From IMG/VR virus record IMGVR_UViG_3300042015_000013, positions 1 through 51,756 of that record: a DNA stretch of 51,756 nt. One strand, given 5' to 3'. Shown piece by piece: positions 534-51,756 of the stretch. The DNA is from a virus. Every line of letters starts with the position of its first letter. The first letter of the stretch is position 1. Made by a program: the position numbers and the translations under genes. The notes under the pieces were generated by a model. The model saw only the letters and a list, made by a program, of their open reading frames with translations. It was not told the DNA's origin and did no database searches.

Positions 534-1023
534 GACACTACCAGACCCGCCGACAAAATGGGTCTACGAGCGTAAGAAGGTAAAAATAAATAAAAGGGGC
601 GAACTGGTTGGCGATACCACCCATTACCTTACCGCAAACTTATTTTACGGCGATGTTCATTGGGTAACACGAAACACCGTTGTAAAATTTGCTAAGGAAT
701 GGCTGGTTCAGTTCCTTACCGATATTCCAGAACTGGAAAAATGCCAGATAGAAATTACTTACCATCACACGTCGGACGGATTCGATTTGGACAATAAGCT
801 TTACTTCTGGGTTAAGATTCTTCTGGATATTTTGAAGACACCGTCGTCCAGGCAGGAAGCGAAAGCGATAGATTACGATAACGAAATAATTTCCATTAAG
901 TGTCTAAAGGACGATACAGTTCAGTACGTAGATAGGATAAACATGGACTTCAAACGCGGTGCAACCGCATTAGAGATAAAAATAATAGGCAGGAAATCCG
1001 CCGTTCAGGAAACATTATTTTAA
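514..1023 (+). CDS. RusA-like Holliday junction resolvase
   Basis: Probable endodeoxyribonuclease that cuts branched recombination or replication intermediates before packaging. The 169-residue protein has two acidic clusters typical of RusA: D91-L-D93-N94-K95, and D120-Y-D122-N followed by an EIISIKCLKDD-like stretch. RusA proteins carry the same D-x-D-N and late acidic pattern, usually in about 120-140 residues. I chose the ATG at 514, which overlaps the upstream gene by 20 bases, because the longer frame from 388 would overlap it by almost 150. The YqaJ-like nuclease and annealing protein upstream fit a recombination module. Family assignment is by pattern only. Confidence 0.62.
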   Translation: MEVIFHKTLPDPPTKWVYERKKVKINKRGELVGDTTHYLTANLFYGDVHWVTRNTVVKFAKEWLVQFLTDIPELEKCQIEITYHHTSDGFDLDNKLYFWVKILLDILKTPSSRQEAKAIDYDNEIISIKCLKDDTVQYVDRINMDFKRGATALEIKIIGRKSAVQETLF

Positions 1024-1040
1024 CCCTTAAATTTAAAAAC

Positions 1041-1346
1041 GTGGAAACCTCAAATTACAAACCAATTAAACAGAACATTCTGGCAAATCTTGAAGATTTA
1101 CGGGATAAGGTAGATTACAAACGATCTACCCCACAGGTGGTAAGATTAGATTCTTACTACTTTGACGAAATGACGCAGGAACGCTACACGCTGGCAGTCG
1201 AAGTCGTAACTTCTATGCAGCAGACCGAAAACGGTCTGGATATTTCGGACATATATATCGAAGAAGTTCATTTCTTTAAAAATGATGGGGAACGACCGAA
1301 GTTCCTGTTCAGTAAAGCAGAACTTACCGATTACATAGATTTTTAG
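1041..1346 (+). CDS. hypothetical protein, GTG start
   Basis: A 101-residue acidic protein that I do not recognise. It begins with GTG at 1041 after an A-rich leader with no Shine-Dalgarno, and no nearby ATG gives a better start. It lies 17 bases after the resolvase gene and 2 bases before the next gene, so it is co-transcribed with the replication/recombination operon. No cysteine clusters or membrane segments are visible. Confidence 0.7.
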   Translation: METSNYKPIKQNILANLEDLRDKVDYKRSTPQVVRLDSYYFDEMTQERYTLAVEVVTSMQQTENGLDISDIYIEEVHFFKNDGERPKFLFSKAELTDYIDF

Positions 1347-1348
1347 AT

Positions 1349-1693
1349 ATGGGAACAGTAGATCAGTTCAAGTGTGAACAGCCCTGTAATAATTGCCCAT
1401 ACCGAAAAGATGCACCTTTGCGTCATTGGGCGGTAGAAGAATTCATTAATCTTATAGCTACAGAAAAAAGCCAGTTCGGTGCGGTTTTCGGTTGCCATAA
1501 AAATAATGGTAGTGTCTGCGTTGGCTGGTTAATGAAACAAGACGAACGATATTTCCCCAGCATCGCGTTACGGATGTCCTTAAGTAAGCATAAAATCACA
1601 CGGGACTATCTGGACAAATTAAATTCCCCTTCGCCATTATTCGACACCGTGGAAGAAATGGTTAAAGCAAACTATCCAGAATATAAATTTTAA
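1349..1693 (+). CDS. Cys-rich DUF6283-like protein
   Basis: A 114-residue protein with an N-terminal C-x3-C-x2-C-P-Y-R motif (residues about 9-18) and later cysteines in FGCHKNNGSVCVG, suggesting one bound metal ion. The CxxCPYR-D start resembles the small phage family DUF6283, whose function is unknown; this is recall by motif, not a search. It sits 2 bases after the previous gene in the early operon. Confidence 0.68.
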   Translation: MGTVDQFKCEQPCNNCPYRKDAPLRHWAVEEFINLIATEKSQFGAVFGCHKNNGSVCVGWLMKQDERYFPSIALRMSLSKHKITRDYLDKLNSPSPLFDTVEEMVKANYPEYKF

Positions 1694-1709
1694 CTATAAA
1701 TATTTTATT

Positions 1710-2357
1710 ATGAATGACCAACAAAAAAGGGTAATCCCTTATTCAGATTTTGACATGGTTTCGGTAAAGTACAGCCCGAAGACAGGTTTAGACGTTGTCT
1801 ATTTCAACAAAGCTACAGGAAGAAGGGAAAACCCTTCGGACGATAAGCACAAACCGCACCCCGATTTATTGGAAGCACTTAAGGCGTTAGCCCCACACGT
1901 AGCCCATATATTAGGATTACAGGACGGCTGGGACTATGCCCGCGAAAACCTGAAAGACAATTCGGATTTATTGAGAGGTGCCATGAGTGGCGCGAACGAA
2001 GCCGATGGTAGATTTACCGTTTCAGGGATCAGGTTCGCAGGGTCAGGCAAAAACGCATCGGTTAAGATTACAGGATCGCTTAAGTGTAAAACTGGTGCCG
2101 TGGGAATGGCTTCGCCTCTTATCAACTTCCAAAGCAATGCAATGGCAATAGAACAGACCATTCAAGCACTTTGCGAAAAGGTAAAAGAAGAAGTTTTCAA
2201 TTTCGTGATTACTGGAAAAGAAGACGCTAAACAGGAAGAAATAGACTTCAATAGTGCAAACGACCCAGACATCGACCAGCCAATAAAAAACAAAGGCGGA
2301 CGAACCAAAAAACAGCTAAGGGTAGACGAAGAAGCCGAAAAAGCTACCGAAGAATAA
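1710..2357 (+). CDS. hypothetical early protein with acidic tail
   Basis: A 215-residue protein of unknown family. The middle (about 90-160) looks beta-rich with a repeated 'GSxKxxSVKITGSLK' flavour, followed by a short helix. The C-terminus is a charged tail with a lysine/arginine patch (KNKGGRTKKQ) and an acidic end (DEEAEKATEE). An acidic tail in a replication operon is reminiscent of single-stranded DNA-binding proteins, but I see no clear OB-fold signature, so this is only a suggestion. The leader is A/T-rich. Confidence 0.7.
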   Translation: MNDQQKRVIPYSDFDMVSVKYSPKTGLDVVYFNKATGRRENPSDDKHKPHPDLLEALKALAPHVAHILGLQDGWDYARENLKDNSDLLRGAMSGANEADGRFTVSGIRFAGSGKNASVKITGSLKCKTGAVGMASPLINFQSNAMAIEQTIQALCEKVKEEVFNFVITGKEDAKQEEIDFNSANDPDIDQPIKNKGGRTKKQLRVDEEAEKATEE

Positions 2358-2391
2358 TTATAACGGGGGATTCGTCCCCCTTTATTTCCTT

Positions 2392-2832
2392 ATGATGAAA
2401 TCAAAAGATACCGGCCCATGTCAGAATCCTGACTGCGATGGAACATACAAACTTTACCGAACGACTGATCCGAAGTTCTGTTCGCCTGAATGCCTGATTA
2501 AATGTAAGCCACCAGCCCAGAAAAAGCCATATACACCCGCAGAAAAAAAACAGTATAAAATAGCCCGGCGATCTAAAAAAAGGGCAAAAGAAGAAATTGT
2601 TTACAATCAACTCGTAAAGGTGTGGTTAATTGGTAAAATTTGTCCTATCACAAAGAAGCCAGCTACAGAAGTCCATCATAAAAAAGGGCGAATCGGAAAA
2701 CTTCTTTTAGATACCAGATTCTGGTTAGGCGTAACGCGTAAAGGGCATAAATGGATCGAAGAACATCCAGAAGAAGCGAAAAAACTGGGCTACTCATTAA
2801 GCAGACTGGAAAAAGATGGCGAAGAAGGCTAA
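2392..2832 (+). CDS. HNH/NinG-like zinc-binding protein
   Basis: A 146-residue basic protein. Residues 9-35 carry C-x4-C and C-x3-C pairs (QNPDCDG, FCSPECL), a likely zinc site. Residues about 85-125 contain C-P-x3-K-P-A-T-E-V-H-H-K-K-G-R and then R-x-G-H-K-W-I, an HNH-like arrangement also seen in phage NinG-type recombination proteins. Catalysis is not certain because the usual central Asn is not obvious. ATGs at 2392 and 2395 are both possible starts. It overlaps the next gene by 17 bases. Confidence 0.6.
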   Translation: MMKSKDTGPCQNPDCDGTYKLYRTTDPKFCSPECLIKCKPPAQKKPYTPAEKKQYKIARRSKKRAKEEIVYNQLVKVWLIGKICPITKKPATEVHHKKGRIGKLLLDTRFWLGVTRKGHKWIEEHPEEAKKLGYSLSRLEKDGEEG

Positions 2833-3037
2833 CGAAAACAGGGTCTTCCGAAAGGATGGTGTAGAGTACTTCGGCATTCTACCGCTTACCACCGAAGTCG
2901 AGGTCGTCGCGACAAAGGACGGTAAAACCCATAAGACTAAAATGTCTTACGACGATGCGTTATGCATGAAGAAAGTGGCTGGATGGACTTATAACATTTA
3001 CCAGCCGAATTTTTGTTCAATCCCTGATACAAAATAA
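2816..3037 (+). CDS. hypothetical small protein
   Basis: A 73-residue, lysine-rich protein of unknown function. It starts inside the end of the HNH-like gene, and its stop (TAA, 3035-3037) shares a base with the next ATG. Such overlap supports translational coupling in the early operon. No motif recognised. Confidence 0.6.
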   Translation: MAKKANENRVFRKDGVEYFGILPLTTEVEVVATKDGKTHKTKMSYDDALCMKKVAGWTYNIYQPNFCSIPDTK

Positions 3038-3303
3038 TGGAAGACGATAAAATAGTATGGTACGAATCGACCGAATGGCCCGAAGTACTAAAGGAATCAA
3101 TAACTGGAACTTCCATCGATGTTCTGGTTTACGATCCAGTTGCCGATCAGCATACAGTAGGGTGGTACGACTTTAATTTGTTTACGTGGCATTTTCTAAG
3201 CAACGAAGACGTTAACCCCCGATTTGTATGGCGATACTTTAACGACAAACATGATAGATATAAACCCAAAAAAAGAAAAACCAATGAGTATAAGACAAAG
3301 TGA
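3037..3303 (+). CDS. hypothetical small protein
   Basis: An 88-residue Trp/Tyr-rich, acidic protein with a basic C-terminus. Its ATG overlaps the preceding stop in a TAATG junction, and its end overlaps the next gene by 20 bases. No family recognised. Confidence 0.6.
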   Translation: MEDDKIVWYESTEWPEVLKESITGTSIDVLVYDPVADQHTVGWYDFNLFTWHFLSNEDVNPRFVWRYFNDKHDRYKPKKRKTNEYKTK

Positions 3304-3478
3304 ATTATTGATCGTTGCTGCCGATTATATTCGGGAAACCAAAGACAGCTACTACCTGGACTGCGAAGGCGATCTGGAATGGTTCCCGAAAAAGCTTGTT
3401 AAGTTTAACGCGGAAACTAAAGAACTGGAAGCCCCTCGATGGCTACTGGAAGAAAAGTTCCCAGATACAAAATTTTAA
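3284..3478 (+). CDS. hypothetical small protein
   Basis: I take the ATG at 3284 rather than 3224 because the shorter form (64 residues) overlaps its neighbour by 20 bases instead of 80, and the leader before 3284 is A-rich like other starts here. The product is acidic, with many Trp and Leu. Function unknown. Confidence 0.58.
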   Translation: MSIRQSELLIVAADYIRETKDSYYLDCEGDLEWFPKKLVKFNAETKELEAPRWLLEEKFPDTKF

Positions 3479-3481
3479 ACC

Positions 3482-4015
3482 ATGCCAGTAATAACATTTT
3501 CCAGACGGTTCCCTGCTACCCATCCAAAGGCTGGGGAACCTACTCTTTTCGTCCAGCAAATACTTAACGCCTTACGAATACCAATCGACCACAATTATAA
3601 GACGTGGCTTAAAGAACATAATCCGAACGTCGATGAAAAAACGATCAGTATGTTTTATAAGGATTTGACAGATAACCCGACTAACGGTGTTAAGATGCAC
3701 ACGATACGAGGTGGTAAGAATAGAAAGATCGGCGGAACGTTTTCGCCCCGCGTCTGGTCTTTTAAGCCGTACAATAGCCCACAGATAACCTTTGCCCCCG
3801 ACTGCGAAATAAAATCGCTGTACGACTTCCAGATCACGCCAGACGGTGCCTATATGATTGACGGGTGGAAAGCCCAGACAGTACAAAGGTGTCGGGTAGC
3901 GGTAAACGATGGGTTAAGTTCTGGCGACTTTCAGGACTGGTTCATTCCCCCCAGCGGTAAAAAGTTCGGCGGATTCAAGGGGCAAATTATAGGCATAATC
4001 CCAGTTACATACTAA
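3482..4015 (+). CDS. hypothetical protein, possibly ASCH/PUA-like
   Basis: A 177-residue protein, last gene of the operon before a terminator. The central 'KMHTIRGGKNRKIGGTFS' stretch, followed by a beta-strand-rich C-terminus, resembles the H-T-I-R and glycine pattern of ASCH (PUA-like, nucleic-acid-binding) domains. The resemblance is weak and by eye. Without that fold it would be an unknown phage protein. Confidence 0.6.
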   Translation: MPVITFSRRFPATHPKAGEPTLFVQQILNALRIPIDHNYKTWLKEHNPNVDEKTISMFYKDLTDNPTNGVKMHTIRGGKNRKIGGTFSPRVWSFKPYNSPQITFAPDCEIKSLYDFQITPDGAYMIDGWKAQTVQRCRVAVNDGLSSGDFQDWFIPPSGKKFGGFKGQIIGIIPVTY

Positions 4016-4022
4016 GAAAAAC

Positions 4023-4052
4023 AAAGACGATCCGATGTGGTCGTCTTTTTTT
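4023..4052 (+). terminator. rho-independent terminator
   Basis: AAAGACGA (4023-4030) pairs with TCGTCTTT (4041-4048), followed by a T run. It ends the operon that started at 47.0 kb and crosses the window join. Confidence 0.85.
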
Positions 4053-4074
4053 ATGCAAAAAATAAAACAAATTA

Positions 4075-4107
4075 TTTGTTTTATATAAAATAAATGATTT
4101 ATATTTG
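4075..4107 (+). promoter_or_regulatory. early promoter P1 (Bacteroidetes type)
   Basis: TTTG at 4075-4078, a 21-bp spacer and TATATTTG at 4100-4107 match the Bacteroidetes -33/-7 consensus. The -33 box lies in a perfect inverted repeat, ATAAAACAAAT-T-ATTTGTTTTAT, which could be a repressor or activator site. Close copies occur at 8434 and 46990. Transcription should begin near 4110-4113. Confidence 0.85.
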
Positions 4108-4109
4108 CT

Positions 4110-4125
4110 CAACCAATTAAAGTAA
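4110..4125 (+). promoter_or_regulatory. early leader segment complementary to putative sRNA
   Basis: The 16 bases CAACCAATTAAAGTAA, 7 bases upstream of the ATG at 4133, are the exact reverse complement of 19965-19980. This is the 5' end of the P1 transcript, so pairing would cover the ribosome-loading region. Confidence 0.5.
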
Positions 4126-4132
4126 ATGACTT

Positions 4133-4429
4133 ATGAATTACGACGAATCATTATTACAAGGGGCATACGCAAACGACAATCGCCCGGCTACAGAACCAGA
4201 AATTATCTATCTGGTAATTATCGACAAAAAAAGTGTTTCTTATTCTTCCGCAGACAGGGACGAAGTTTATACCCAGTATGAAGAAGAAGTTAACGAAGCG
4301 ACGGAAAACTTAGAAAATAAGCGAATCGAATTCGGGTGGGTTTACGACCACGACTACCACCAGAAAGATTTCGCTAAAACCTACAAAAGTTTTACCGCAG
4401 AAGAAGACCATAGAATCAGAATTAAATAA
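4133..4429 (+). CDS. hypothetical early protein
   Basis: A 98-residue, strongly acidic protein (many Glu/Asp/Tyr), first gene of the P1 operon and so probably among the first products after infection. Small acidic first-operon products are often inhibitors of host or defence proteins, but no family is recognised here and that is speculation. Its leader contains the sRNA-complementary segment. Confidence 0.7.
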   Translation: MNYDESLLQGAYANDNRPATEPEIIYLVIIDKKSVSYSSADRDEVYTQYEEEVNEATENLENKRIEFGWVYDHDYHQKDFAKTYKSFTAEEDHRIRIK

Positions 4430-4440
4430 TTCAAATTACC

Positions 4441-4674
4441 ATGAATAATCAAAGACGTAAGGAATTACAGGAAATATCGGACGGCATTTCCGAATTAAAG
4501 GAAAAGTTAGAATCGTTAATGGAACAGGAGCAGGAAGGTTTAGATAACCTTCCAGAATCCTTTCAGAATGGCGAAAGAGGCGAAGCGATGCAGGAATGTA
4601 TCGATCAGATGCAGGAAGCTATCGACAGCATGGAATCAGCAATGGAATCAATAGAAGAAACAATAAATCGTTAA
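4441..4674 (+). CDS. hypothetical coiled-coil protein
   Basis: A 77-residue, almost entirely helical, Glu/Gln/Met-rich protein with heptad-like spacing, predicted as a coiled coil. It follows the previous gene by 11 bases. The nine bases before its ATG (CAAATTACC) are also complementary to the putative sRNA (19980-19988). Function unknown. Confidence 0.7.
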   Translation: MNNQRRKELQEISDGISELKEKLESLMEQEQEGLDNLPESFQNGERGEAMQECIDQMQEAIDSMESAMESIEETINR

Positions 4675-4676
4675 GA

Positions 4677-5045
4677 ATGGGAAATTTAATCAAAACATGG
4701 AATGATCTGGATAACGTGAACCAGCTAATTCATAATTCAGAAATAGCCATCGACAATATTAGTAGATGGCCCAATAAGACCAGCAGGGATTATCAGGAAT
4801 ATGAACTTATTACTAAGCAACTGGCAGAAGCTAAAGAAGAAAAACTTCGTCTTCTTAATCAACTGATCGAAGATGCAGAAGAAGAAAAAGTAAAAGTGTG
4901 TGACACCATCCCAGACGAAGAACCGACAACGTATTCCGAAAACACTTTCAATTACAAAGAGTGGGAAGCGGCAAAAAATACCGTTAGCCCTGTAAGCGGT
5001 GGCGTGTTTGTCGGGGGTAAAACCAGCGCGCCAGACGAAGAATAA
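4677..5045 (+). CDS. hypothetical protein
   Basis: A 122-residue protein using the ATG at 4677, two bases after the upstream stop; a longer frame from 4596 would overlap that gene. The first two-thirds are helical and charged, possibly coiled coil, and the end is glycine-rich and flexible. Not recognised. Confidence 0.65.
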   Translation: MGNLIKTWNDLDNVNQLIHNSEIAIDNISRWPNKTSRDYQEYELITKQLAEAKEEKLRLLNQLIEDAEEEKVKVCDTIPDEEPTTYSENTFNYKEWEAAKNTVSPVSGGVFVGGKTSAPDEE

Positions 5046-5065
5046 CCAATTAAAATTTTAGTAAT

Positions 5066-5494
5066 ATGTGTACACCGAATCCACCTTTTAACCCGTTCGC
5101 TTTTCCTAATGATGAAAAAGCAACCGATAGTTACGGAATGACCTTAATGGATTATTTCGCTTCCACAGCACCGCCACCGCCAGACTGGTTTAGACCTCAT
5201 ATAGAAGAAAGACCCAAACGTTCGGCGCGACTTCACGAAATATTTGGTAAAGGTTCAGAACACCCAGATTCTGAATTGTTTCTAAGGTATTACAATGACG
5301 AATCGAACGAATGGGAAGGCGATAATATCCCCCCTAAACTTAAAGCCGAAGTAGCAGAAGCCGATAAGAACCTCGACATCTGGATTCAGAAGACTAACGA
5401 ATGGGAAGCAAAAAATAACATTCAAACTATTGTACAATGGCGATTTGTCTACGCTACAGAAATGCTTAAACACCGTCAACTAATAACCATATAA
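5066..5494 (+). CDS. hypothetical protein
   Basis: A 142-residue protein starting with a Pro/Phe-rich segment (MCTPNPPFNPFAFP, then TAPPPPDWF) and continuing as an acidic helical domain. The leader holds AACCAATTAAA, the same motif as at 4111. Its stop overlaps the next ATG (TAATG). Function unknown. Confidence 0.68.
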   Translation: MCTPNPPFNPFAFPNDEKATDSYGMTLMDYFASTAPPPPDWFRPHIEERPKRSARLHEIFGKGSEHPDSELFLRYYNDESNEWEGDNIPPKLKAEVAEADKNLDIWIQKTNEWEAKNNIQTIVQWRFVYATEMLKHRQLITI

Positions 5495-5796
5495 TGGAAA
5501 ATTTACAAAATAACAAAACATTTATTTTCCAGTTCTATTCTTCTACGGGGGGAGTACTGGCAGACACCGACCTTCTTACGAGGGAAGAAGCCGTAAAACT
5601 TTGGAATGACAACTACCCAGTTGCCGCCGAACTGATAAAAAACGGAACCACGATCCAGATGGCTGTATGGGCTGGAATGGACGAAAACATGATGTTCGAT
5701 AGGAATAACGTTCTGGGATTTATCGACTACGATTACACTTCGGACGGTACCAGAATACTGTCTTCAACAATGCAACCAATTAAACCGACTATATAA
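5494..5796 (+). CDS. hypothetical protein
   Basis: A 100-residue protein of mixed alpha/beta composition with no recognised motif. It shares its start base with the preceding stop and its stop with the next start, so it is translationally coupled in the P1 operon. Confidence 0.65.
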   Translation: MENLQNNKTFIFQFYSSTGGVLADTDLLTREEAVKLWNDNYPVAAELIKNGTTIQMAVWAGMDENMMFDRNNVLGFIDYDYTSDGTRILSSTMQPIKPTI

Positions 5797-6485
5797 TGGA
5801 AAAAATAGATTTGACCCGTATATACTTTTTCAATAACCGAGCGGTTAAAATACTACGCGAAGAAAGCGACCAGTTCGTTTTAGTTCAGGCGCAACTTAAT
5901 ATCGATCACGATATTACTGGCGGTAACTTTTGTCATGGATGCATGGTGGGACACTATCATCACGATTGCGAACAGGCTGGCGAAGTTATCGAAGCGGTTA
6001 TGGAAAATATTAGCGATGCAGAAGTGTTCTGGGTGGCTAAAAAATACCTACAGGAAGAACCGTTCGAATACAAAGAGTATCAAAAACTTAAGGAAGCGAA
6101 TAAGGCACTTACCGAACAAAGGGATAATCTTATCGATGTGGTTTTTGAACTTAAGAAAGAAGAATCGAAGTTGCTGGATTCTTGCAAGGGTCTACAGCTT
6201 GCGTTCCAGCGTAAGGTAGAAGACAAAATCGCGCTTGAATTTAATTACATAGCTTCCAAACTTAAGCACGACGAATTGAAGGATAAGATTAAAGAATCGA
6301 AGTCGGCAATAGTGAAGGGAACTAATGTAGTTATATCGGCGGACAGAATGCTGGAACTTTTACAGGCAGACATTACACTTCGCCGTCTGAAAAGTGGTGG
6401 CGTTGATAACTGGGAATGGTATGGCGAAAGTATGAAGGGCGGTAGTGTAGAAAAAGAAGCCTTCGAAACCTTTAAAAATCTATAA
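5796..6485 (+). CDS. Cys/His-cluster coiled-coil protein
   Basis: A 229-residue protein. Residues about 44-58 hold a dense C-x2-C and His cluster (FCHGCMVGHYHHDC), a probable metal site. Residues about 95-185 form a long charged coiled coil. The family is unknown. It is coupled to both neighbours by overlapping stop/start codons. A nucleic-acid or protein-binding scaffold is possible; nothing indicates catalysis. Confidence 0.68.
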   Translation: MEKIDLTRIYFFNNRAVKILREESDQFVLVQAQLNIDHDITGGNFCHGCMVGHYHHDCEQAGEVIEAVMENISDAEVFWVAKKYLQEEPFEYKEYQKLKEANKALTEQRDNLIDVVFELKKEESKLLDSCKGLQLAFQRKVEDKIALEFNYIASKLKHDELKDKIKESKSAIVKGTNVVISADRMLELLQADITLRRLKSGGVDNWEWYGESMKGGSVEKEAFETFKNL

Positions 6486-6829
6486 TGAAAAAGATATTTA
6501 TATTCTTTGTAATGGTTCTTCTGGTGTCTTGTAACACCGCCAAAACCATAACCCTTTCTTACAATCACGTTACTGACGAAGTAAGAGTAAATGACAGCCT
6601 ACAGAATCCCCACGCTATGGATGTCTGGAACCAACTGGACGACGAATTCGAAATCGTGATCCATAAGCACCGAATAAAAAGCATTACACCCGTAGGCTTC
6701 AAATACGAATATGAACCATACTACACAAATGGTCGCGTATACTTCTACAGCCCTGATATGTCCAAATACATGGCGGACAATGAATGGTTTACTTTTATAG
6801 TAGTCTATAAAAAACGCCTTAATGAATAA
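6485..6829 (+). CDS. phage-encoded lipoprotein (early)
   Basis: A 114-residue protein beginning MKKIFIFFVMVLLVSC, a short basic N-terminus and hydrophobic run ending in a lipobox with Cys16. The mature part has beta-strand character. It should be lipidated and anchored in the envelope. In other phages, early lipoproteins often block superinfection or receptor use, so surface exclusion is a reasonable inference; no sequence motif proves it. It overlaps the next small gene by 8 bases. Confidence 0.75.
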   Translation: MKKIFIFFVMVLLVSCNTAKTITLSYNHVTDEVRVNDSLQNPHAMDVWNQLDDEFEIVIHKHRIKSITPVGFKYEYEPYYTNGRVYFYSPDMSKYMADNEWFTFIVVYKKRLNE

Positions 6830-6992
6830 CTTTTATTACCCGCCAGACCTGATCCGCCTTATTATTCTCAACTGGGAAGTTTATCGAATCAGGCTGGCTT
6901 ATAATTCAGAACCTGAAAAGCGAATATATGTACCGTATATTTTCTATTGTCCAGCGGTAGGGCCATTCGCATTTATCCATCACTTAAATTAA
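6822..6992 (+). CDS. small hypothetical protein
   Basis: A 56-codon frame starting MNNFYYPPDL and ending just before the next gene. Its ATG overlaps the end of the lipoprotein gene by 8 bases, as is common here, and it fills an otherwise empty stretch. Rich in Tyr/Ile/Phe; a hydrophobic middle is not long enough for a clear membrane helix. Function unknown. Confidence 0.5.
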   Translation: MNNFYYPPDLIRLIILNWEVYRIRLAYNSEPEKRIYVPYIFYCPAVGPFAFIHHLN

Positions 6993-6996
6993 AATT

Positions 6997-7671
6997 ATGA
7001 AAGCATTTTTAGACCCAAATAATATAGCCGTCCTGATTTTGGGAACGCTATTCGTGGTAATTATTATTTATCTGCATAATATTTCAAAGACCTTCCCTAA
7101 AATTCCAACCTACGGCGATCTTACAAAAAGGCAAAAAGAACTGTTTTTAATATGCAAGCAATCTAATAACATAGAATATCACGAAGAACTTATTAAACTA
7201 AGTAAGAAGCTTCGGGACATGGAAAAATCTATTCCATTCAGAAGCACCCCCGGCGGAAACTATACAAAAGGCTTTGAAGAATTATCTTCTTTGATTAAAG
7301 TAGATTCTGAATTGCAGAGTGTAGAACAAAAACTAACGAAAACTGGGGAAGTCACACCGCCTTCAAAACTTGACATATTCACGGCTCATAAGGCTTGTAC
7401 AAATAACATTAACGGGATTCTGGCTGGTAGACCCGACCTGTCTTTTATCACCGAAGGTAAAACTAAAACCGCCCATGACTTTAACGAATACTATCGAGGT
7501 CTTACCGAAAAACAGGCGGAAGCTTACGGTCGCGCCGATGCACACATTCCAGAACTGGTTCAGATAGCTGAAATGTACTTCGACAGTATGGTCGGCACGC
7601 CAGCAGAAAACGGTCTTCCTTACGCTATTGTAAAACAAACTTTAAAAGTTATCGCAAATGGGACAGCATAA
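6997..7671 (+). CDS. membrane-anchored hypothetical protein
   Basis: A 224-residue protein with one hydrophobic segment at residues about 9-27 (IAVLILGTLFVVIIIYL) and a soluble, helical, basic remainder. It probably sits in the inner membrane with a cytoplasmic domain. It overlaps the next gene by 14 bases. No family recognised. Confidence 0.68.
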   Translation: MKAFLDPNNIAVLILGTLFVVIIIYLHNISKTFPKIPTYGDLTKRQKELFLICKQSNNIEYHEELIKLSKKLRDMEKSIPFRSTPGGNYTKGFEELSSLIKVDSELQSVEQKLTKTGEVTPPSKLDIFTAHKACTNNINGILAGRPDLSFITEGKTKTAHDFNEYYRGLTEKQAEAYGRADAHIPELVQIAEMYFDSMVGTPAENGLPYAIVKQTLKVIANGTA

Positions 7672-8119
7672 AAAACCACTAACCGAAATGTTTAAAAGCA
7701 ACGCCTTAAAGGAGTTGAAAAAAATAGAACACCCGTTACAGTCAATGCCTAAAAACATACTACCTTCTAAGGCAATTGACCCGACAAAAATAACGCAGTC
7801 GATTATAGCGAACGAAGTCGCCCTGGATTTTATGCGAAATATAGTGGGTACCAAATACTACAGACAGTCGGTAAAGAATGCCGTAAATCTGGCAAATAAA
7901 GAACTACAAAAAGCTTCTGAAAAGGATTTCGATATGTTTTTCGAAGCAGGGGAAAATCAAAGCAAAGCGGCGGACGATCTTTTTAATGCCATGCATAGCA
8001 TGACGAAGGAAATATCAAGTCTGGGAATTACCCACTTTATGGTAATTACTGACATGATTAAGGCGTACAAAAAAGACCCAGCCAGCATTAGCGGAATAGT
8101 AAACAAAATAAACCGATAG
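7658..8119 (+). CDS. hypothetical helical protein
   Basis: A 153-residue basic, mainly helical protein without recognised motifs. It overlaps the membrane-anchored gene upstream, and a two-helix membrane protein follows 1 base later. The three may form one membrane-associated unit, which is inference from arrangement only. Confidence 0.65.
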   Translation: MGQHKKPLTEMFKSNALKELKKIEHPLQSMPKNILPSKAIDPTKITQSIIANEVALDFMRNIVGTKYYRQSVKNAVNLANKELQKASEKDFDMFFEAGENQSKAADDLFNAMHSMTKEISSLGITHFMVITDMIKAYKKDPASISGIVNKINR

Positions 8120-8120
8120 C

Positions 8121-8324
8121 ATGAGCCAGAAATCAATAATTTGCCAGTTGCTACTGTTTTGTAGCTTATGTGTAGCCCTTATTTGTTATATGCTATGGCA
8201 GGAAACTGACACGGTAGAAGACAGTAAATTCTGGGCTTTGTGTGTTATGTCTTCAATATTCTACACGGGTGCTTTGATTGTGTTTTCCAGAATTAAACAG
8301 AAAGACACGTCAGCTAAGAAATAA
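8121..8324 (+). CDS. small two-helix membrane protein
   Basis: A 67-residue protein with two hydrophobic segments (residues about 7-25 and 37-57) and a basic tail, predicted as a membrane hairpin. It is the last gene of the P1 operon before a terminator. It lies far from the lysis genes, so a holin role is unlikely. Confidence 0.65.
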   Translation: MSQKSIICQLLLFCSLCVALICYMLWQETDTVEDSKFWALCVMSSIFYTGALIVFSRIKQKDTSAKK

Positions 8325-8328
8325 TTTC

Positions 8329-8336
8329 TATATTTG
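8329..8336 (+). promoter_or_regulatory. possible promoter -7 box
   Basis: TATATTTG fits the Bacteroidetes -7 element, but no good TTTG lies 18-22 bp upstream. If active it would make only a transcript of about 65 bases before the terminator at 8373-8407. Confidence 0.4.
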
Positions 8337-8342
8337 TTAAGC

Positions 8343-8407
8343 CATAATCGTAGACAATAGCCCATCTTTGAGAAACCCCACCCGATAAAAAGGAGTGGGG
8401 TTTTTTA
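8343..8407 (+). ncRNA. putative short terminated RNA A
   Basis: Lies between the -7-like box at 8329 and the terminator at 8407, with no reading frame. It may be an independent small RNA or simply the 3' end of the P1 operon transcript. I saw no strong complementarity to another leader. Confidence 0.3.
8373..8407 (+). terminator. rho-independent terminator
   Basis: AAACCCCAC pairs with GTGGGGTTT, followed by six T and an A/T tract. It closes the 4.1-8.3 kb operon. Confidence 0.88.
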
Positions 8408-8433
8408 TTTTTAGTAAAAAATAAATCAAATTA

Positions 8434-8466
8434 TTTGTTTTATATAAAATAAATGTTTTATATTTG
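8434..8466 (+). promoter_or_regulatory. early promoter P2 (Bacteroidetes type)
   Basis: TTTG at 8434-8437, 21-bp spacer, TATATTTG at 8459-8466. The sequence is almost identical to P1, including the inverted repeat around the -33 box with one mismatch. The expected transcript starts near 8470 and reaches the 17.2 kb terminator. Confidence 0.85.
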
Positions 8467-8481
8467 CTCTTATAAATGTGG

Positions 8482-8501
8482 AACCAAAATTACCGAACAA
8501 T
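8482..8501 (+). promoter_or_regulatory. second early leader complementary to putative sRNA
   Basis: AACCAAAATTACCGAACAAT, running into the ATG at 8500, pairs with 19973-19992 in the putative sRNA at 17 of 20 Watson-Crick positions plus one G-U. Pairing would mask the start codon. Confidence 0.42.
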
Positions 8502-8703
8502 GGAAAAGCTAATCGTAAATAGCACCGACTTATCACTACCAGTAAAATTCGCAAATCCTATGAGCGAATTTGAAACTACTGCAACCTTCACAATTACCGA
8601 ATATAACCCGAATACAGGTAGCGTCCTGATTGTTTGGAATGCTGACCCGATGCCAATTAAAGGCACTCAACGCGTAAGATTAACTGACCTTACAAACGCT
8701 TAA
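8500..8703 (+). CDS. hypothetical small protein
   Basis: I choose the ATG at 8500, because an upstream ATG at 8476 would leave almost no leader after the P2 start site. The 67-residue product is beta-rich and acidic. It is the first gene of the P2 operon. Function unknown. Confidence 0.62.
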   Translation: MEKLIVNSTDLSLPVKFANPMSEFETTATFTITEYNPNTGSVLIVWNADPMPIKGTQRVRLTDLTNA

Positions 8704-8705
8704 TC

Positions 8706-9038
8706 ATGGGATGTAATAAAGTGTTTACTTCCATCATGGAAGGATATAAGGAACCGACCCTTAACGAAGCGTTAGCCGAATTGGTAGATAATGGGTGCCT
8801 GACAACAGAAAAAGCTTCCGAAATGGAAGAATTATCAAATCTTATTATATCAGAACTGAACGGCTTTTTTTATTCTGCGATGTATGCAGGGTTAAATAAT
8901 TCTTTCAGCGCATCAGGTAAGTTTCTGGTAGGTATTAATACAGGCTACAGTTATTGTATAGAAATAAAATTCCATAATCCTTATGGTGGAAACTGCCCTA
9001 CGGATGGTCTTACTTCTTATTATCATTTATTCAATTAA
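8706..9038 (+). CDS. hypothetical protein
   Basis: A 110-residue acidic protein with a helical N-terminal half and an aromatic-rich C-terminal half (YSYCIEIKFHNPYGGNC). No recognised domain. Two bases separate it from the upstream gene. Confidence 0.66.
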   Translation: MGCNKVFTSIMEGYKEPTLNEALAELVDNGCLTTEKASEMEELSNLIISELNGFFYSAMYAGLNNSFSASGKFLVGINTGYSYCIEIKFHNPYGGNCPTDGLTSYYHLFN

Positions 9039-9048
9039 AACCAACAAT

Positions 9049-9534
9049 ATGAAAACAATTATCACAGCTTTATTTTTTGCCTTCGCCTTCGCTTCATGCG
9101 ATAAAGAATCGTATAACGAAGAACTCCCGTCTTATGTTAGGGAAAACCGTAATGATGCACCGCCATCTAACTTTAAAGGCGAATGGACTTGCACGTGCGA
9201 CAAATCAGAAATTATCATGTCGCTATCTGACACTTCCTTAGTGTTGAATCTGGAAAAATACGGAAGGGGTAAAATAGTTGTCGACCTGACCGACGAAGCC
9301 CTGTACAAAGCCAATATCGAAAACAGGCTTTACACCGTGGAACGTGACGGCATGAGTATAAACCTTTCTAATGGTTTGGGGGATTACGAGAAATTTGTCA
9401 CGCTTACAATAGACAACGACTGTATTACCCGAATGATGTTGTTTATTCCGCCAGTAGTTGATCCAGTAGAACCAGAACAGCCAGAACAGCCCGCAGAACC
9501 AACAGAACCAGAACCCTCTGTAAATGTCAACTAA
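9049..9534 (+). CDS. phage-encoded lipoprotein with Pro-Glu tail
   Basis: Starting at the ATG at 9049, the 161-residue protein opens with MKTIITALFFAFAFASC, a clear lipoprotein signal with lipidated Cys17. A beta-rich domain follows, then a repetitive tail of Pro-Glu-Pro/Gln units (residues about 137-157), probably an extended spacer. The longer frame from 8983 would bury the signal, so I reject it. A second early lipoprotein suggests envelope remodelling or superinfection exclusion, by inference. Confidence 0.75.
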   Translation: MKTIITALFFAFAFASCDKESYNEELPSYVRENRNDAPPSNFKGEWTCTCDKSEIIMSLSDTSLVLNLEKYGRGKIVVDLTDEALYKANIENRLYTVERDGMSINLSNGLGDYEKFVTLTIDNDCITRMMLFIPPVVDPVEPEQPEQPAEPTEPEPSVNVN

Positions 9535-9794
9535 TGAAAACAGAATATGTCTGTCAAAGGTGTGGGTACACTCATAAAGTTGAGCCACCAAAAAAAGAAC
9601 CACAGACCCACACGGAAGTCGAAGAAGCTTTAATCGAAATGGGCTTCGATGTGGTTTCGGCAAATAAATCGAATGTCGTCTTCTGGTACCGTGGCAACCA
9701 CATAATTTATTTTCTGAAAAAGAAGTGGGCTTCTGGTAAAGGAATCGAAGACGGAAGGGGATGGGATCATTTAGTAACTCAAATAACAAAATAA
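9534..9794 (+). CDS. zinc-ribbon-like small protein
   Basis: An 86-residue protein with an N-terminal C-x2-C (YVCQRCGY) knuckle followed by an alpha/beta region. It is coupled to the lipoprotein gene upstream and the exonuclease gene downstream by overlapping stop/start codons. Only half a classical zinc ribbon is visible. Function unknown. Confidence 0.63.
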   Translation: MKTEYVCQRCGYTHKVEPPKKEPQTHTEVEEALIEMGFDVVSANKSNVVFWYRGNHIIYFLKKKWASGKGIEDGRGWDHLVTQITK

Positions 9795-10528
9795 TGAAAA
9801 TAGTTAAATCGATAGTTTTTTTCGACTTAGAAACCACAGGAACCAGTACATCAAAAGACAGAATAGTACAAATCGCCGCGATAAAGTTATCGCCAGATGG
9901 TTCGCGCGAAACTAAAGAAATGTTTATTAATCCAGAAATGCCGATCCCTGCGGGTGCTACCGAGGTTCACGGAATAACCGACGACATGGTTAAGGACGCG
10001 CCGAAGTTTTCCCAGATTGCAAAAGGTTTAGTGGGATGGCTGTTCGGTTGCGATTTGGGCGGGTTCAATTCGGATAACTTCGATATACCGCTTCTAATGG
10101 AAGAATTCCACCGAGTAGGTATTGAGTTTCCTACATGGGAATTATGTTTCGTGGACGTGCTTAAAAATGAGCGTAGGAAGTCGCCGAACAAACTTGGCGA
10201 TGTTTACCGACGATATACTGGTACCGAACTGGAAAACGCCCACGATGCATTAGCCGACATTTCAGCCACTATTGAGGTGGCAATGTTACAATGTGCCGAC
10301 GAACCAGAATTGACCCCGCAGGACATCGATAAGTTATGTCAGGGCGATAAAGAACGCTTCGACTATGCCGCTAAAACTTACGTAAAGGATGGTGTAGTGT
10401 ATTGGGCATTCGGGAAGAACATGGATAAAGCTGTCCTTAGTGACCTTCCTTACCTTCAATGGGTACTGAACGCCGACTTCCCGATGCAGACTAAAAAAGC
10501 ACTTAAAGAACTTCTAACCAAAAAGTAA
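9794..10528 (+). CDS. DnaQ-like 3'-5' exonuclease (DEDDh)
   Basis: A 244-residue member of the DEDDh exonuclease family that removes 3' nucleotides, as in DNA polymerase III epsilon. ExoI is seen as FFDLETTG (D11, E13), ExoII as FNSDNFDIPLL and ExoIII as H150-x4-D155 (HDALAD). 'EVHGITDDMV' is also typical. I start at 9794, where it overlaps the previous stop. No polymerase is present in the window, so it may act with the host polymerase, in recombination, or on host or defence nucleic acids. An extra C-terminal region of about 80 residues has no recognised function. Confidence 0.88.
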   Translation: MKIVKSIVFFDLETTGTSTSKDRIVQIAAIKLSPDGSRETKEMFINPEMPIPAGATEVHGITDDMVKDAPKFSQIAKGLVGWLFGCDLGGFNSDNFDIPLLMEEFHRVGIEFPTWELCFVDVLKNERRKSPNKLGDVYRRYTGTELENAHDALADISATIEVAMLQCADEPELTPQDIDKLCQGDKERFDYAAKTYVKDGVVYWAFGKNMDKAVLSDLPYLQWVLNADFPMQTKKALKELLTKK

Positions 10529-14488: not shown

Positions 14489-14928
14489 TACAGGCAATAA
14501 AACCAATTACGAGGGATCAGGCTATCGCAGTAGCCTGGGCAGAACTTGAAATCGATGTAACAGAAGTAAAACTGGAAGAAAACGGGGGGATTAAGTTCTG
14601 GCTATTCGAAAAAAGCCAGCACGACTTTGTTACTAAACATCGTGATAAAATTACTATTACAGATCAGTTCGCACGTGACGGATATGTTTACCGTCCCATA
14701 TCAATCGAAGGCATCGATAATAACAGGGGCTGGATCGTTTTGTCAAAGCCAGAAGACCTTCCGATGGGCGAATCCTGTTTTCTGGAATGCTATGGAAGAC
14801 ACCCAGATTATTACCCGCAATTCTTCCACCACTTTAATGGAACAGAAATGGACGCAAAGTATATCTTTCAGAAAGCTTCGTGTTTCAAACGGGTGCCGTT
14901 TTCGCACCCCGTATTTACCGAATTATAA
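14485..14928 (+). CDS. hypothetical protein
   Basis: A 147-residue protein overlapping the previous gene by 4 bases. Alpha/beta composition, aromatic-rich second half, no motif recognised. Confidence 0.66.
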   Translation: MIQAIKPITRDQAIAVAWAELEIDVTEVKLEENGGIKFWLFEKSQHDFVTKHRDKITITDQFARDGYVYRPISIEGIDNNRGWIVLSKPEDLPMGESCFLECYGRHPDYYPQFFHHFNGTEMDAKYIFQKASCFKRVPFSHPVFTEL

Positions 14929-14948
14929 ACCAATTAAATATTTAAGCA

Positions 14949-19922: not shown

Positions 19923-19946
19923 GTTACGAAAAGAAGATCTTTTTTG

Positions 19947-19954
19947 TATCTTTG
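19947..19954 (+). promoter_or_regulatory. promoter -7 box for the putative sRNA
   Basis: TATCTTTG fits TAnnTTTG. The -33 region is weak (TTAC 19 bp upstream). The expected start is near 19958, about 65 bases before a terminator. Confidence 0.55.
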
Positions 19955-19957
19955 CCC

Positions 19958-20023
19958 CATCATGTTACTTTAATTGGTTGGTAATTTGGGTTAAGCCACT
20001 TCCAGAAATGGGGTGGCTTTTTC
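19958..20023 (+). ncRNA. putative trans-acting antisense small RNA
   Basis: A non-coding stretch between a -7 box and a terminator. Bases 19965-19980 (TTACTTTAATTGGTTG) are the exact reverse complement of the P1 early leader at 4110-4125. Bases 19973-19992 match the P2 early leader (8482-8501) at 17 of 20 positions, and 19980-19988 match the leader at 4432-4440. The terminator hairpin forms the 3' end. The arrangement (promoter, unstructured pairing region, terminator) is that of a bacterial base-pairing sRNA. Its existence as a transcript is inferred. Confidence 0.5.
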
Positions 20024-20052: not shown

Positions 20053-20060
20053 TACCTTTG
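20053..20060 (+). promoter_or_regulatory. late structural promoter -7 box
   Basis: TACCTTTG fits TAnnTTTG; a TTAG lies 23 bp upstream. It would start the transcript for the structural gene at 20129. Confidence 0.6.
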
Positions 20061-20066
20061 TAAGCG

Positions 20067-20087
20067 TATTGCCACGGGAACGCAATA
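20067..20087 (+). other. 5' leader stem-loop
   Basis: TATTGC (20067-20072) pairs with GCAATA (20082-20087) around a 9-base loop, right at the predicted transcript start. Such 5' hairpins stabilise abundant mRNAs, which would fit a major structural gene. Confidence 0.5.
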
Positions 20088-20128
20088 GGAAATAAGAATT
20101 ATTTTATTAATCAAAACTTTTAATTATC

Positions 20129-20746
20129 ATGGATTGTAATTGTCCCGAACCTACAGCATTAACCAGCATCCCAGTAGAAAACTGCGTGGTTAATATGAAG
20201 CAAATCCAGAAGCTTGGATTTCAAAGGTTACAGTCGACCCCATTCTTTGACGCTACTACCGTTATAGATTTAGCAGAATGGCAAACGGCATTAACCGCAA
20301 CCGACGACACTAAAATCGTCGTTACACCACTAATCGGGGGCGACCCTATAATCGAGGCTGGCGACGCTATTACGTCAGGTGGTGGCGATAACTCAACACT
20401 TAACGGGGTAGAAGAAAACGAAGGAACGAATCCTTCTGCTTTTTCCGCGCTTTTCAAAGGACTATCGGCAGTTACTGAAAAAGCACTAAAAGCCCTTATG
20501 TGTGAACCACGCCTTACGGTATTCTTCTTCCTGCAAGGTGGTAAGATCGCCGTACTGAATACTGGCGACGGAACACCAGTAGGTAAAACAGGATTCCCAC
20601 TACAAGGAACGCCGTTCATTTCCGACAGGAATAACGCTGGTTTTGCCACTAAAGACACCCATAACATTTCCTTTTCCCTTGCGCCGGGCTGGTCGGAAGA
20701 CTTGGAAATAATTTCCCCTGACTTTAACCCGTTAACTGATCTTTGA
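20129..20746 (+). CDS. probable structural protein (unassigned)
   Basis: A 205-residue acidic, beta-rich protein with two Cys near the start (MDCNCPEP) and more at 19 and about 127. It has its own promoter, a 5' stem-loop and a long A/T-rich leader, features of a highly expressed virion protein. It lies between terminase and portal, which is not a usual site for a tail-tube gene, but none of the other genes looks like a tube protein. Tail tube or head decoration are both possible. No family match recognised. Confidence 0.6.
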   Translation: MDCNCPEPTALTSIPVENCVVNMKQIQKLGFQRLQSTPFFDATTVIDLAEWQTALTATDDTKIVVTPLIGGDPIIEAGDAITSGGGDNSTLNGVEENEGTNPSAFSALFKGLSAVTEKALKALMCEPRLTVFFFLQGGKIAVLNTGDGTPVGKTGFPLQGTPFISDRNNAGFATKDTHNISFSLAPGWSEDLEIISPDFNPLTDL

Positions 20747-24468: not shown

Positions 24469-25437
24469 ATGGAATTACAAGCAATCTTAGATGAGATCGG
24501 AAAGAATCCATCGTTAATCGACGGGCTTATGCAGCCGATCTTTGACAGCGAAAAGGGAAAAGCCGCCATCGCAAACAGGGTTAACACCGAAGTGGCTATA
24601 CAAATAGCCGAAAAGATAAAAGAAACGCATACCCGCTACGACGAAGACATGAATTCTATTCTGGGCGAACGTCCAGGTCAGAAGGAAGGTGGAGCAAAAG
24701 AAAAGACTTACGAAAAAGTAAAGGCTTTATTTGAAGAACTTAAGGGCTTAAGGGGACAAAAAGAATCCCTTACCAAAGATGCAGAAGTCGCCAGACTTAC
24801 CGCGGAAATAGAATCCCTTAAGAAAACAGGCGGGGGCGAAATTATCAAACAGGCGTTTGACGAAGCTAAAGCGCAATGGACGGCGAAAGAAGCTGAATAT
24901 CTAAAAAAGATTGAAGATTCAGGAAAACAGGGAACTGAATTCCAGATTAAGTCTGCCTTAGCAACTGCAAAAGCGGGTCTTAATTTTAACCCAGACATGG
25001 ACGAAGAAATTCGTAACATCGTTCTGGAAAAAGCCGAATCGACTTTACTGTCAGGTGCCAAAGTAGAAGGCGATAAGATTACCTTCTTCAAACCAGACGG
25101 GAAGCCGTATCTTAATCCAACAACATACGAGCCAATGACCGCCAGCGAAGTTCTTTCTTCGTTAGAAGGTGTTCAGAAAATCGTTAAAAAAGACGGTCAG
25201 CAAGGTGGCGGAGCCGATCCAGCCATGAAAGGAGGCATTACTACCGTTAAAGTCGAAGGGAAAGACGATAAGAAAAAGCTTGATTTACAGGGAACCTTTA
25301 AAACCCAGATGGAATTCACAGAAGCCGCCGATAAGCTTCTTCGCGAATCTGGTGTTACTAAAAGTGACCCTACTTACTTCCAGCTTAAAGACGAAGCTTA
25401 CAAAGAACATAATGTGGCATCGCTTCCGCTACAGTAA
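24469..25437 (+). CDS. scaffold-like capsid assembly protein
   Basis: A 322-residue, highly charged protein with long coiled-coil stretches (residues about 50-160, 'ELKGLRGQKESLTKDAEVARLTAEIESL') immediately before the major capsid gene. Capsid scaffolding proteins have the same place, size and coiled-coil nature, and guide prohead assembly before being lost. No protease motif seen. By position and composition only. Confidence 0.72.
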   Translation: MELQAILDEIGKNPSLIDGLMQPIFDSEKGKAAIANRVNTEVAIQIAEKIKETHTRYDEDMNSILGERPGQKEGGAKEKTYEKVKALFEELKGLRGQKESLTKDAEVARLTAEIESLKKTGGGEIIKQAFDEAKAQWTAKEAEYLKKIEDSGKQGTEFQIKSALATAKAGLNFNPDMDEEIRNIVLEKAESTLLSGAKVEGDKITFFKPDGKPYLNPTTYEPMTASEVLSSLEGVQKIVKKDGQQGGGADPAMKGGITTVKVEGKDDKKKLDLQGTFKTQMEFTEAADKLLRESGVTKSDPTYFQLKDEAYKEHNVASLPLQ

Positions 25438-46891: not shown

Positions 46892-46902
46892 TAGTATATT
46901 TG
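46873..46902 (+). promoter_or_regulatory. promoter within the end of the lysis gene
   Basis: TTTG at 46873-46876, 18-bp spacer, TATATTTG at 46895-46902, partly inside the stop region of the upstream gene. Good consensus match, and transcription would hit a terminator after about 60 bases. Confidence 0.65.
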
Positions 46903-46908
46903 TATCGG

Positions 46909-46970
46909 TTTCCACAAACCTATATTAAAACTCGACATTTTAGAACCGCCCCACGTTGGGCGGTTTTTTT
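46909..46970 (+). ncRNA. putative short terminated RNA B
   Basis: Between the promoter at 46873-46902 and the terminator at 46970 there is no ORF. A 5' hairpin can form from GGTTT/AAACC around CCAC (46907-46920). It might be an independent small RNA. No strong complementarity was noticed. Confidence 0.4.
46944..46970 (+). terminator. rho-independent terminator
   Basis: AACCGCCC pairs with GGGCGGTT around CACGTT, then a T7 run. It ends the late region before the early promoter P3. Confidence 0.87.
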
Positions 46971-46989
46971 ATGAAAATAAAATAAAATA

Positions 46990-47022
46990 TTTGTTTTATA
47001 TAAATAATTTGTTTTATATTTG
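46990..47022 (+). promoter_or_regulatory. early promoter P3 (Bacteroidetes type)
   Basis: TTTG at 46990-46993, 21-bp spacer, TATATTTG at 47015-47022, like P1 and P2 including the A/T-rich flank. It starts the replication and recombination operon that runs across the window join. Confidence 0.85.
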
Positions 47023-47045
47023 CTCAACATTAAAATATAAGTATT

Positions 47046-47222
47046 GTGGAAAATACATCAAACCAAAAGGATAATTTCCCGAAAATCGTGGAAATTTCCA
47101 AAGAAAAGAAAACCTTCAAGGTTAATCGAAACGACCCCGCGTTCGACCGCCCCCTTAGTCGCCTGGCAAAAGTACTCGCGCCAGAAAATCAAACAGGAAT
47201 ATTAATTTTTAAAATCAAATAA
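47046..47222 (+). CDS. small hypothetical protein, GTG start
   Basis: A 58-residue basic frame (MENTSNQKDNFPKIVEISKEKK...) beginning at GTG 47046, the first gene after P3. Its stop at 47222 is next to the regulator ATG at 47223. No family recognised, and the start codon is uncertain. Confidence 0.5.
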   Translation: MENTSNQKDNFPKIVEISKEKKTFKVNRNDPAFDRPLSRLAKVLAPENQTGILIFKIK

Positions 47223-51321: not shown

Positions 51322-51756
51322 ATGGACTTAAAACTTTTTAACGATCAGGTTTCTGGCAAAAATATTCCAGCGAAGGCGGTGGAAAAGTTCGTGGCTATAA
51401 TTGAACAAAAAAAGTCAATGCTTACAGTTCCAGAAGTACAGGCAAAGCTTACCACCGTAGAAATGCAAGTGGCTGAATCTGGTACCAAAGATTCGATAAG
51501 AGTTATTCCAGAAAAGGAACTGGTCGATAAAGTTAAAACGATGGCGAAAATGATCGCCCGCGATGCTGGTATAAAAACATGGAACGACGATTCTATGCAG
51601 TACGACTACACCCGTTTTTATACCGTCCTTAAGGGCTACTATTCTGAATTGTCAATCGAAGAAGTTAAGAAGGCGTTCGAACTTGCAATGGTCGGAATGC
51701 TGGACGAATATTTACCAAAGGATAAAGAGCGTAACGCAGACAAAAACCATTATCAA
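51322..51756 (+). CDS. 5' part of the end-spanning replication-region gene
   Basis: Begins at ATG 51322, three bases after the initiator-like gene, and stays open to the window end at an exact codon boundary. Its last 11-12 codons recur at 1-35, and the same frame continues there to base 533, giving a protein of about 310 residues. The visible N-terminal 145 residues are helical and charged. Family unknown. Confidence 0.8.
   Translation, partial: MDLKLFNDQVSGKNIPAKAVEKFVAIIEQKKSMLTVPEVQAKLTTVEMQVAESGTKDSIRVIPEKELVDKVKTMAKMIARDAGIKTWNDDSMQYDYTRFYTVLKGYYSELSIEEVKKAFELAMVGMLDEYLPKDKERNADKNHYQ
51722..51756. repeat. right copy of 35-bp end overlap
   Basis: Matches bases 1-35 except 51730 (C versus G at base 9), changing a CGT codon to GGT. 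Evidence of circularity or of terminal redundancy. Confidence 0.85.

Follow-up and report, generated by a model that had tools for sequence, protein, structure and literature searches.

Two short predicted RNAs in a virus of Bacteroidota with complementarity to many of its own early gene starts

The virus of Bacteroidota analysed here appears to encode two short RNAs able to pair with many of its own early gene starts. From sequence comparison we consider it likely that both, the anti-leader RNA ALR2 and its sister sRNA1, act as multi-target antisense RNAs and block the translation of early genes. The complementarity exceeds chance and is focused on initiation regions, and sRNA1 is conserved while tracking the leaders of each phage. 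This sister RNA, changing in step with the gene starts of the relatives, points to a new group of RNA switches in viruses. The original prediction of a trans-acting antisense RNA directed against early leaders keeps its core, strongly backed by position statistics, by the sister RNA and by sRNA1 leader tracking.

The stretch of DNA analysed (the window) is an IMG/VR record of 51,756 bases with the terminase gene at 18176, the capsid gene at 20129 and the portal gene at 21943. It is probably a near-complete genome, as a 26-base direct repeat at positions 10-35 recurs at 51731-51756, marking both window ends; such a repeat suggests a circular or complete genome, though the record is classed as linear. 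Portal and capsid proteins group the virus with Flavobacterium phages Fpv5/FpV9 and tant8-1 and with several IMG/VR contigs, the portal sharing 64% identity with Fpv5/FpV9 and 57% with tant8-1. The relatives were retrieved with the portal protein as query; the protein encoded at 24469-25437, used as single query, retrieved none. An early-promoter model trained on the relatives only, without the window, gives just three strong window sites, at 47015, 4100 and 8459, which are P3, P1 and P2 (Table 1). Rfam has no match above gathering score in the window and gives tRNA only in five related loci. The capsid mRNA leader (window 20053-20128) carries an element conserved in many relatives, in a CAAAGGGAAAGCGGTCGC or GGGAACGC form followed by a TTATTAAT-type sequence, and the similar element AAAGGGAA lies ahead of a different gene in both tant8-1 and G012; it is a possible late-leader signal.

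Table 1. Positions of promoters, predicted RNAs and their putative target sites in the window
Feature	Position	Strand	Basis
P1 early promoter, -7 box	4100..4107	+	early-promoter model from relatives
P2 early promoter, -7 box	8459..8466	+	early-promoter model from relatives
P3 early promoter, -7 box	47015..47022	+	early-promoter model from relatives
ALR2, anti-leader RNA (predicted)	19958..20023	+	weakly structured antisense body of ~35 nt plus terminator; 5' end inferred
TAnnTTTG -7-like box TATCTTTG, weak promoter candidate without -33 element	19947..19954	+	chance-frequency motif, low late-promoter score
ALR2 seed A, complementary to (C)AACCAATTAAA(GTAA)	19965..19980	+	complementarity
ALR2 seed B, complementary to (C)AAATTACC(A)	19979..19988	+	complementarity
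Intrinsic terminator, ends operon ahead of capsid gene	19993..20022	+	terminator at equivalent place conserved in relatives
Best predicted ALR2 target, CAAATTACAAACCAATTAAA, codons 4-10 of GUG-start gene 1041-1346 (phrog_13145)	1051..1070	+	19/20 complementary
ALR2 target site in P1 leader, gene 4133, 16/16	4110..4125	+	exact complement of 19965-19980
ALR2 seed B target CAAATTACCA at ATG 4441	4432..4441	+	complementarity
ALR2 target AACCAATTAAA, 22 nt before ATG 5066, inside operon without promoter	5044..5054	+	11-nt seed A match
ALR2 target CAACCAATTAAA, 23 nt before ATG 5796, T7 gp5.9-like domain protein	5773..5784	+	12-nt seed A match
ALR2 target in P2 leader, 17/20 plus one G-U, reaches ATG 8500	8482..8501	+	complementarity
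ALR2 target AACCAATTAAA, 21 nt before ATG 14949	14928..14938	+	11-nt seed A match
sRNA1, conserved sister RNA (predicted)	46895..46973	+	covariance model from relatives
sRNA1 -7 box	46895..46902	+	
sRNA1 hairpin, CCAC in loop	46906..46920	+	
sRNA1 antisense stretch		+	
sRNA1 terminator	46942..46967	+	
sRNA1 target, GUG start region of gene 1041, GTGGAAACC, 9 nt	1041..1049	+	loop complementarity
sRNA1 target, GUG start region of P3 gene (47046), TTGTGGAAA, 9 nt	47044..47052	+	loop complementarity
Third unit of -7 box, short body and terminator, just upstream of P2	8329..8411	+	weak sRNA1-model match, E=0.035

The 5' half of ALR2 would be a weakly structured double seed, with seed A directed against (C)AACCAATTAAA and seed B against CAAATTACC, and its 3' half the intrinsic terminator. 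The pairings first described for the leaders are all found. The reverse complement of 19965-19980, CAACCAATTAAAGTAA, is identical to 4110-4125 (16/16), that of 19973-19992 agrees with 8482-8501 at 17/20 positions with a G-U pair among the three differences, and that of 19980-19988, CAAATTACC, equals the nine bases at 4432-4440. The P3 leader, described as poorly matched, pairs only weakly with ALR2. A match of this length had been held to be unlikely by chance; its length does not carry that argument, as three further inverted matches in the window are equally long or longer (16-18 nt), but its position does. In a duplex-energy scan of 6465 plus-strand 40-nt segments (step 8) against the leaders, the segments at 19945-19961 rank first against P1 (-23.3 versus -18.3 kcal/mol for the next distinct one), and also for the summed energies with P1, P2 and P3. 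ALR2 reaches energies of -23.6 with its own P1 and -25.3 with its own P2, the leaders of seven related phages giving a mean of -11.4 (sd 2.7, best -16.3). Of dinucleotide shuffles of the 35-nt body, 0.5% attain the P1+P2 energy seen here. Where position is not controlled for, total duplex energy misleads, GC-rich terminators scoring well against P2.

The original prediction listed its targets incompletely: the best predicted one, gene 1041, had been missed, and P3 is covered by sRNA1 (46895). Perfect complementary runs of at least 9 nt were listed genome-wide, the initiation region being defined as -40 to +6 around the start codon. Nine of the 16 runs complementary to ALR2 fall in initiation regions (expected 1.1, p=2.7e-7), the complementarity beyond chance that a trans-acting antisense sRNA should display. 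When 35-nt plus-strand segments are ranked by the number of gene starts matched over at least 9 nt, ALR2 is the genome maximum with 12 genes (mean 0.7). The next-best distinct segments match up to 10 gene starts and at least one of them is A/T-rich promoter DNA, so that the weaker ALR2 targets call for caution; several of the 12 depend on 9 nt alone and, in sequences this A/T-rich, many 9-nt hits are of low complexity.

The predicted site in gene 1041 (1051-1070) pairs across both seeds, with a body duplex of -27.2 and a cofold gain of -22.8 kcal/mol. Seed A matches (C)AACCAATTAAA at 21-23 nt before the ATG of genes 4133 (16 nt), 5796 (12), 5066 (11) and 14949 (11), while seed B matches CAAATTACCA at gene 4441 and shorter forms at 8500, 12272, 28312 and 48259. 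The early protein encoded at 5796-6485 matches in its C-terminal part the T7 gp5.9 RecBCD-inhibitor family (Pfam E=5e-11), a gp5.9-like domain in a Bacteroidota phage whose gene bears the 12-nt antisense site in its leader.

The window has exactly three units made of a -7 box, a short non-coding body and a terminator, at 8329, 19947 and 46895. The last, sRNA1, immediately precedes P3, the first early promoter, which it covers and ALR2 does not. Its layout and position are kept in at least nine relatives (G001, G002, G003, G006, Fpv5, tant8-1, G010, G011, G012, L057), among them the cultured Flavobacterium phages Fpv5 and tant8-1; in tant8-1, whose host is Flavobacterium sp. LMO8, it occupies record positions 40431-40515. 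The usual form is a hairpin with a CCAC loop, an antisense stretch and a terminator, the latter with two-sided changes at 7 of 11 pairs. A covariance model built from eight relatives, with the window left out, finds window 46895-46973 as its best non-training match in 515 kb (E=0.0016). This locus has all the family traits: -7 box, CCAC-loop hairpin, antisense stretch, terminator, and a place upstream of the first early promoter. Both window genes matched by the sRNA1 loop, 1041 and 47046, begin with GUG-GAA. The homolog of gene 1041 in Fpv5 (at 24349, 42% identity) is matched by the sRNA1 of that phage in two blocks, leader and GUG start. The covariance model lists 46895 and 8329, not 19947, and ALR2 has no CCAC-loop hairpin; ALR2 may work like sRNA1, but its membership of the sRNA1 family is not supported. 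Complementary runs of the unit at 8329-8411 displayed no target enrichment, and no target was found for it.

Own leaders were compared with those of other phages in a set of 12 phages, and none of 20,000 permutations equalled the observed sRNA1 fit; with one member per close pair p is 1e-5, and 6e-5 without the window. The clear cases are G006, whose sRNA1 has a 13-14-nt complement to five early leaders, G001, Fpv5, G010 and G011. G002, G003 and L057 are individually unremarkable because an AACAAAC-type leader is common to them, and the Fpv5 isolates add no variation because they are identical over the sRNA1 region. In phage 1/32 (P132, locus L039) a unit in a similar position, at 5700-5790 upstream of an early promoter, fails to match the phage's own leaders (rank 11 of 12) and was counted as a failure; it could have another target set or a different function. 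Change of both partners together in related phages, originally put forward as a check, is strongly indicated by permutation for the sister sRNA1. For ALR2 no homolog was found, and it is not conserved at the equivalent position in relatives. Among the candidate ALR2 homologs considered, the pre-capsid promoter/terminator units of G001, G006, G010 and Fpv5 have no clear anti-leader by eye. The units TANT 13450 (tant8-1) and G012 14285 were dropped, their energies with own leaders not being outstanding; the 'box' of the former also sits within a small ORF.

Unrelated large phage contigs also use the AACCAATTAAA core as a recurrent early leader, with 7-13 copies, mostly clustered, in G018, G169, G170 and G172, and four in G171. 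Promoter plus AACCAATTAAA leader occurs 4-13 times before early genes in the contigs behind loci L110, L124, L127, L128 and L130; in L110, a large Bacteroidota phage contig (IMGVR_UViG_3300017917_003637), the repetition spans 599-10300. G018 was reached through L019 in an IMG/VR scan for P1-like leaders that otherwise returned mostly chance matches, and the window portal used as query finds no relative in it. It has 12 leaders with the AACCAATTAAA core and two reverse copies (AAATTTAATTGGTT), each adjoining an intrinsic terminator (1374 and 6776), one after a gene and the other after tRNA-Tyr. G170 has one 12-nt reverse copy immediately ahead of a terminator. No exact antisense copy adjoining a terminator was found in G169, G171 and G172, three of the five AACCAATTAAA-leader-rich contigs; two distant opposite-strand copies in G169, with no adjacent terminator, were not counted. 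We also considered AACCAATTAAA as a general host leader and rejected this: 149 host genomes, from the class to which a Crocinitomicaceae MAG with a related capsid gene belongs, hold 0-2 promoter-proximal copies each, and the leader is therefore mainly a phage feature.

As originally described, the ALR2 region is without ORF, has a TAnnTTTG box just upstream and a terminator at its end. This 8-mer is found 53 times in the window versus 52 in shuffles, that is at chance frequency, and a model of the relatives' late promoters scores the 19947 box at -3.2 versus 9.9 for the capsid promoter at 20053. In the relatives a terminator always closes the operon before the capsid promoter. ALR2 may thus be the 3' end of the upstream operon transcript, both because the box is a poor promoter compared with the relatives and because the terminator always ends the pre-capsid operon. 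A discrete ALR2 transcript and a late shut-off are the less secure parts of the original prediction. Whichever its origin, ALR2 would come from the late region, in keeping with the presumed timing first proposed.

The low promoter score and the pre-capsid terminator also favour a different reading, in which the anti-leader is the operon mRNA 3' end only and pairs intramolecularly or between mRNAs, tuning stability or translation with no separate small RNA. So do the antisense copies of G018: no promoter box precedes them, each directly follows a gene or tRNA, and the regions that hold them also start with the leader. We find this unlikely: the sRNA1 units are freestanding between a terminator and an early promoter and have their own -7 box, and the window operon that ends at 20022 does not begin with a AACCAATTAAA leader.

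We favour instead a mechanism in which ALR2, produced from the weak 19947 box or as the 3' end of a transcript stopping before the capsid gene, would pair in trans with the leader element repeated about 20 nt before several early gene starts, and also with codons 4-10 of GUG-start gene 1041. Such pairing would block ribosome loading on early mRNAs. Bacteroidota ribosomes rely little on Shine-Dalgarno pairing. sRNA1 (46895-46973) would cover the GUG-start genes 1041 and 47046 through its hairpin loop, whose sequence is complementary to the start codon, and the two RNAs could jointly lower or stop the synthesis of early proteins in the course of infection. Pairing at start codons normally blocks initiation, and the predicted duplexes cover or adjoin start codons, from which we infer repression rather than activation. 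This makes it improbable that the same leader pairing activates or protects early mRNAs, or confers superinfection immunity in the manner of a P4 CI-type RNA. In favour of such roles, the sign of the effect is not given by pairing alone, and sRNA1 lies directly upstream of the early operon, P4 CI RNA acting on sequences just up- and downstream of itself (PMC4825925).

The shared sequence could also be read as DNA, namely the site of a phage regulator just downstream of promoters with a reversed operator at 19965; the P1 copy and the 19965 copy do each lie shortly 3' of a -7 box. The copies at 5044, 5773 and 14928 lie inside operons, where no promoter is present; their constant spacing of 21-23 nt from the ATG argues for an RNA rather than a DNA operator. 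As the element moreover varies between relatives with its complement following, and as pairing crosses GUG start codons in two blocks, we regard an operator as very improbable. Least probable of all is a chance resemblance of A/T-rich stretch and leaders, for which the 16-18 nt inverted repeats elsewhere in the window, the low-complexity 9-nt matches and the misfit of P132 speak, and which the position-restricted, shuffle, swap and genome-rank tests reject, the sister RNAs repeating the pattern.

Known phage antisense RNAs mostly govern one or few genes of the lysogeny decision. OOP is transcribed from the strand opposite its one target, whereas the RNAs predicted here are encoded apart from most of the genes they would target and rely on a short, repeated seed. 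Phage antisense RNAs as such are a known kind, including sar, OOP, aQ, c4 and P4 CI (PMC12197685; PMC4825925). The immunity RNAs P4 CI and P1/P7 c4 are, like those proposed here, short phage RNAs that pair with the phage's own early or replication transcripts (PMC4825925; c4 in PMC12197685). P4 CI RNA, however, has two nearby sites and causes transcription termination, while here the matches lie in separate leaders and initiation regions, belong to many genes and fall on start codons or close to them. Two RNAs that a review terms asRNAs, P22 sar and lambda OOP, likewise block translation or expression of phage mRNAs by base pairing (PMC12197685). Two further phage regulatory RNAs, lambda PreS and VpdS of Vibrio phage VP882, function in the lytic cycle: PreS has host dnaN as its target, the Hfq-binding VpdS influences transcripts of both host and phage, and neither is described in that review as tracking the repeated early leaders of its own phage (PMC12197685). 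By description, there is a likeness to the multi-target Bacteroidota sRNAs GibS and FopS, which form hairpins, use short seeds and have promoters of the sigma-ABfr type (PMC11697453). For FopS RNAs, translational repression is reported in a Bacteroidota host, and the authors of that study suggest spread by phages (PMC11697453); the FopS targets are host SusC-type transporter mRNAs, whereas the RNAs here are matched to the phage's own early genes. The phage sRNA review makes no mention of Bacteroidota or Flavobacterium (PMC12197685), and a literature search of limited coverage returned nothing on such RNAs in their phages. The predicted novelty lies in self-targeting across a regulon, in the use of a repeated leader as address and in a co-evolving sister RNA.

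More tentatively, and with not quite even confidence, we propose that many Bacteroidota phages mark their early mRNAs with a common leader as RNA address and that one or more anti-leader RNAs adjoining a terminator shut the whole early class. This would be an RNA early-to-late switch replacing a protein repressor or acting beside it, with leader and anti-leader co-evolving. The present case would be a regulon-wide, self-directed antisense RNA in Bacteroidota phages with a sister RNA that co-evolves with its targets, and it gives a possible reason why these phages repeat one short leader before many early genes. A repeated leader with a reverse copy beside a terminator provides a search rule for more cases, and the model offers a testable mechanism of early shut-off for the cultured Flavobacterium phages.
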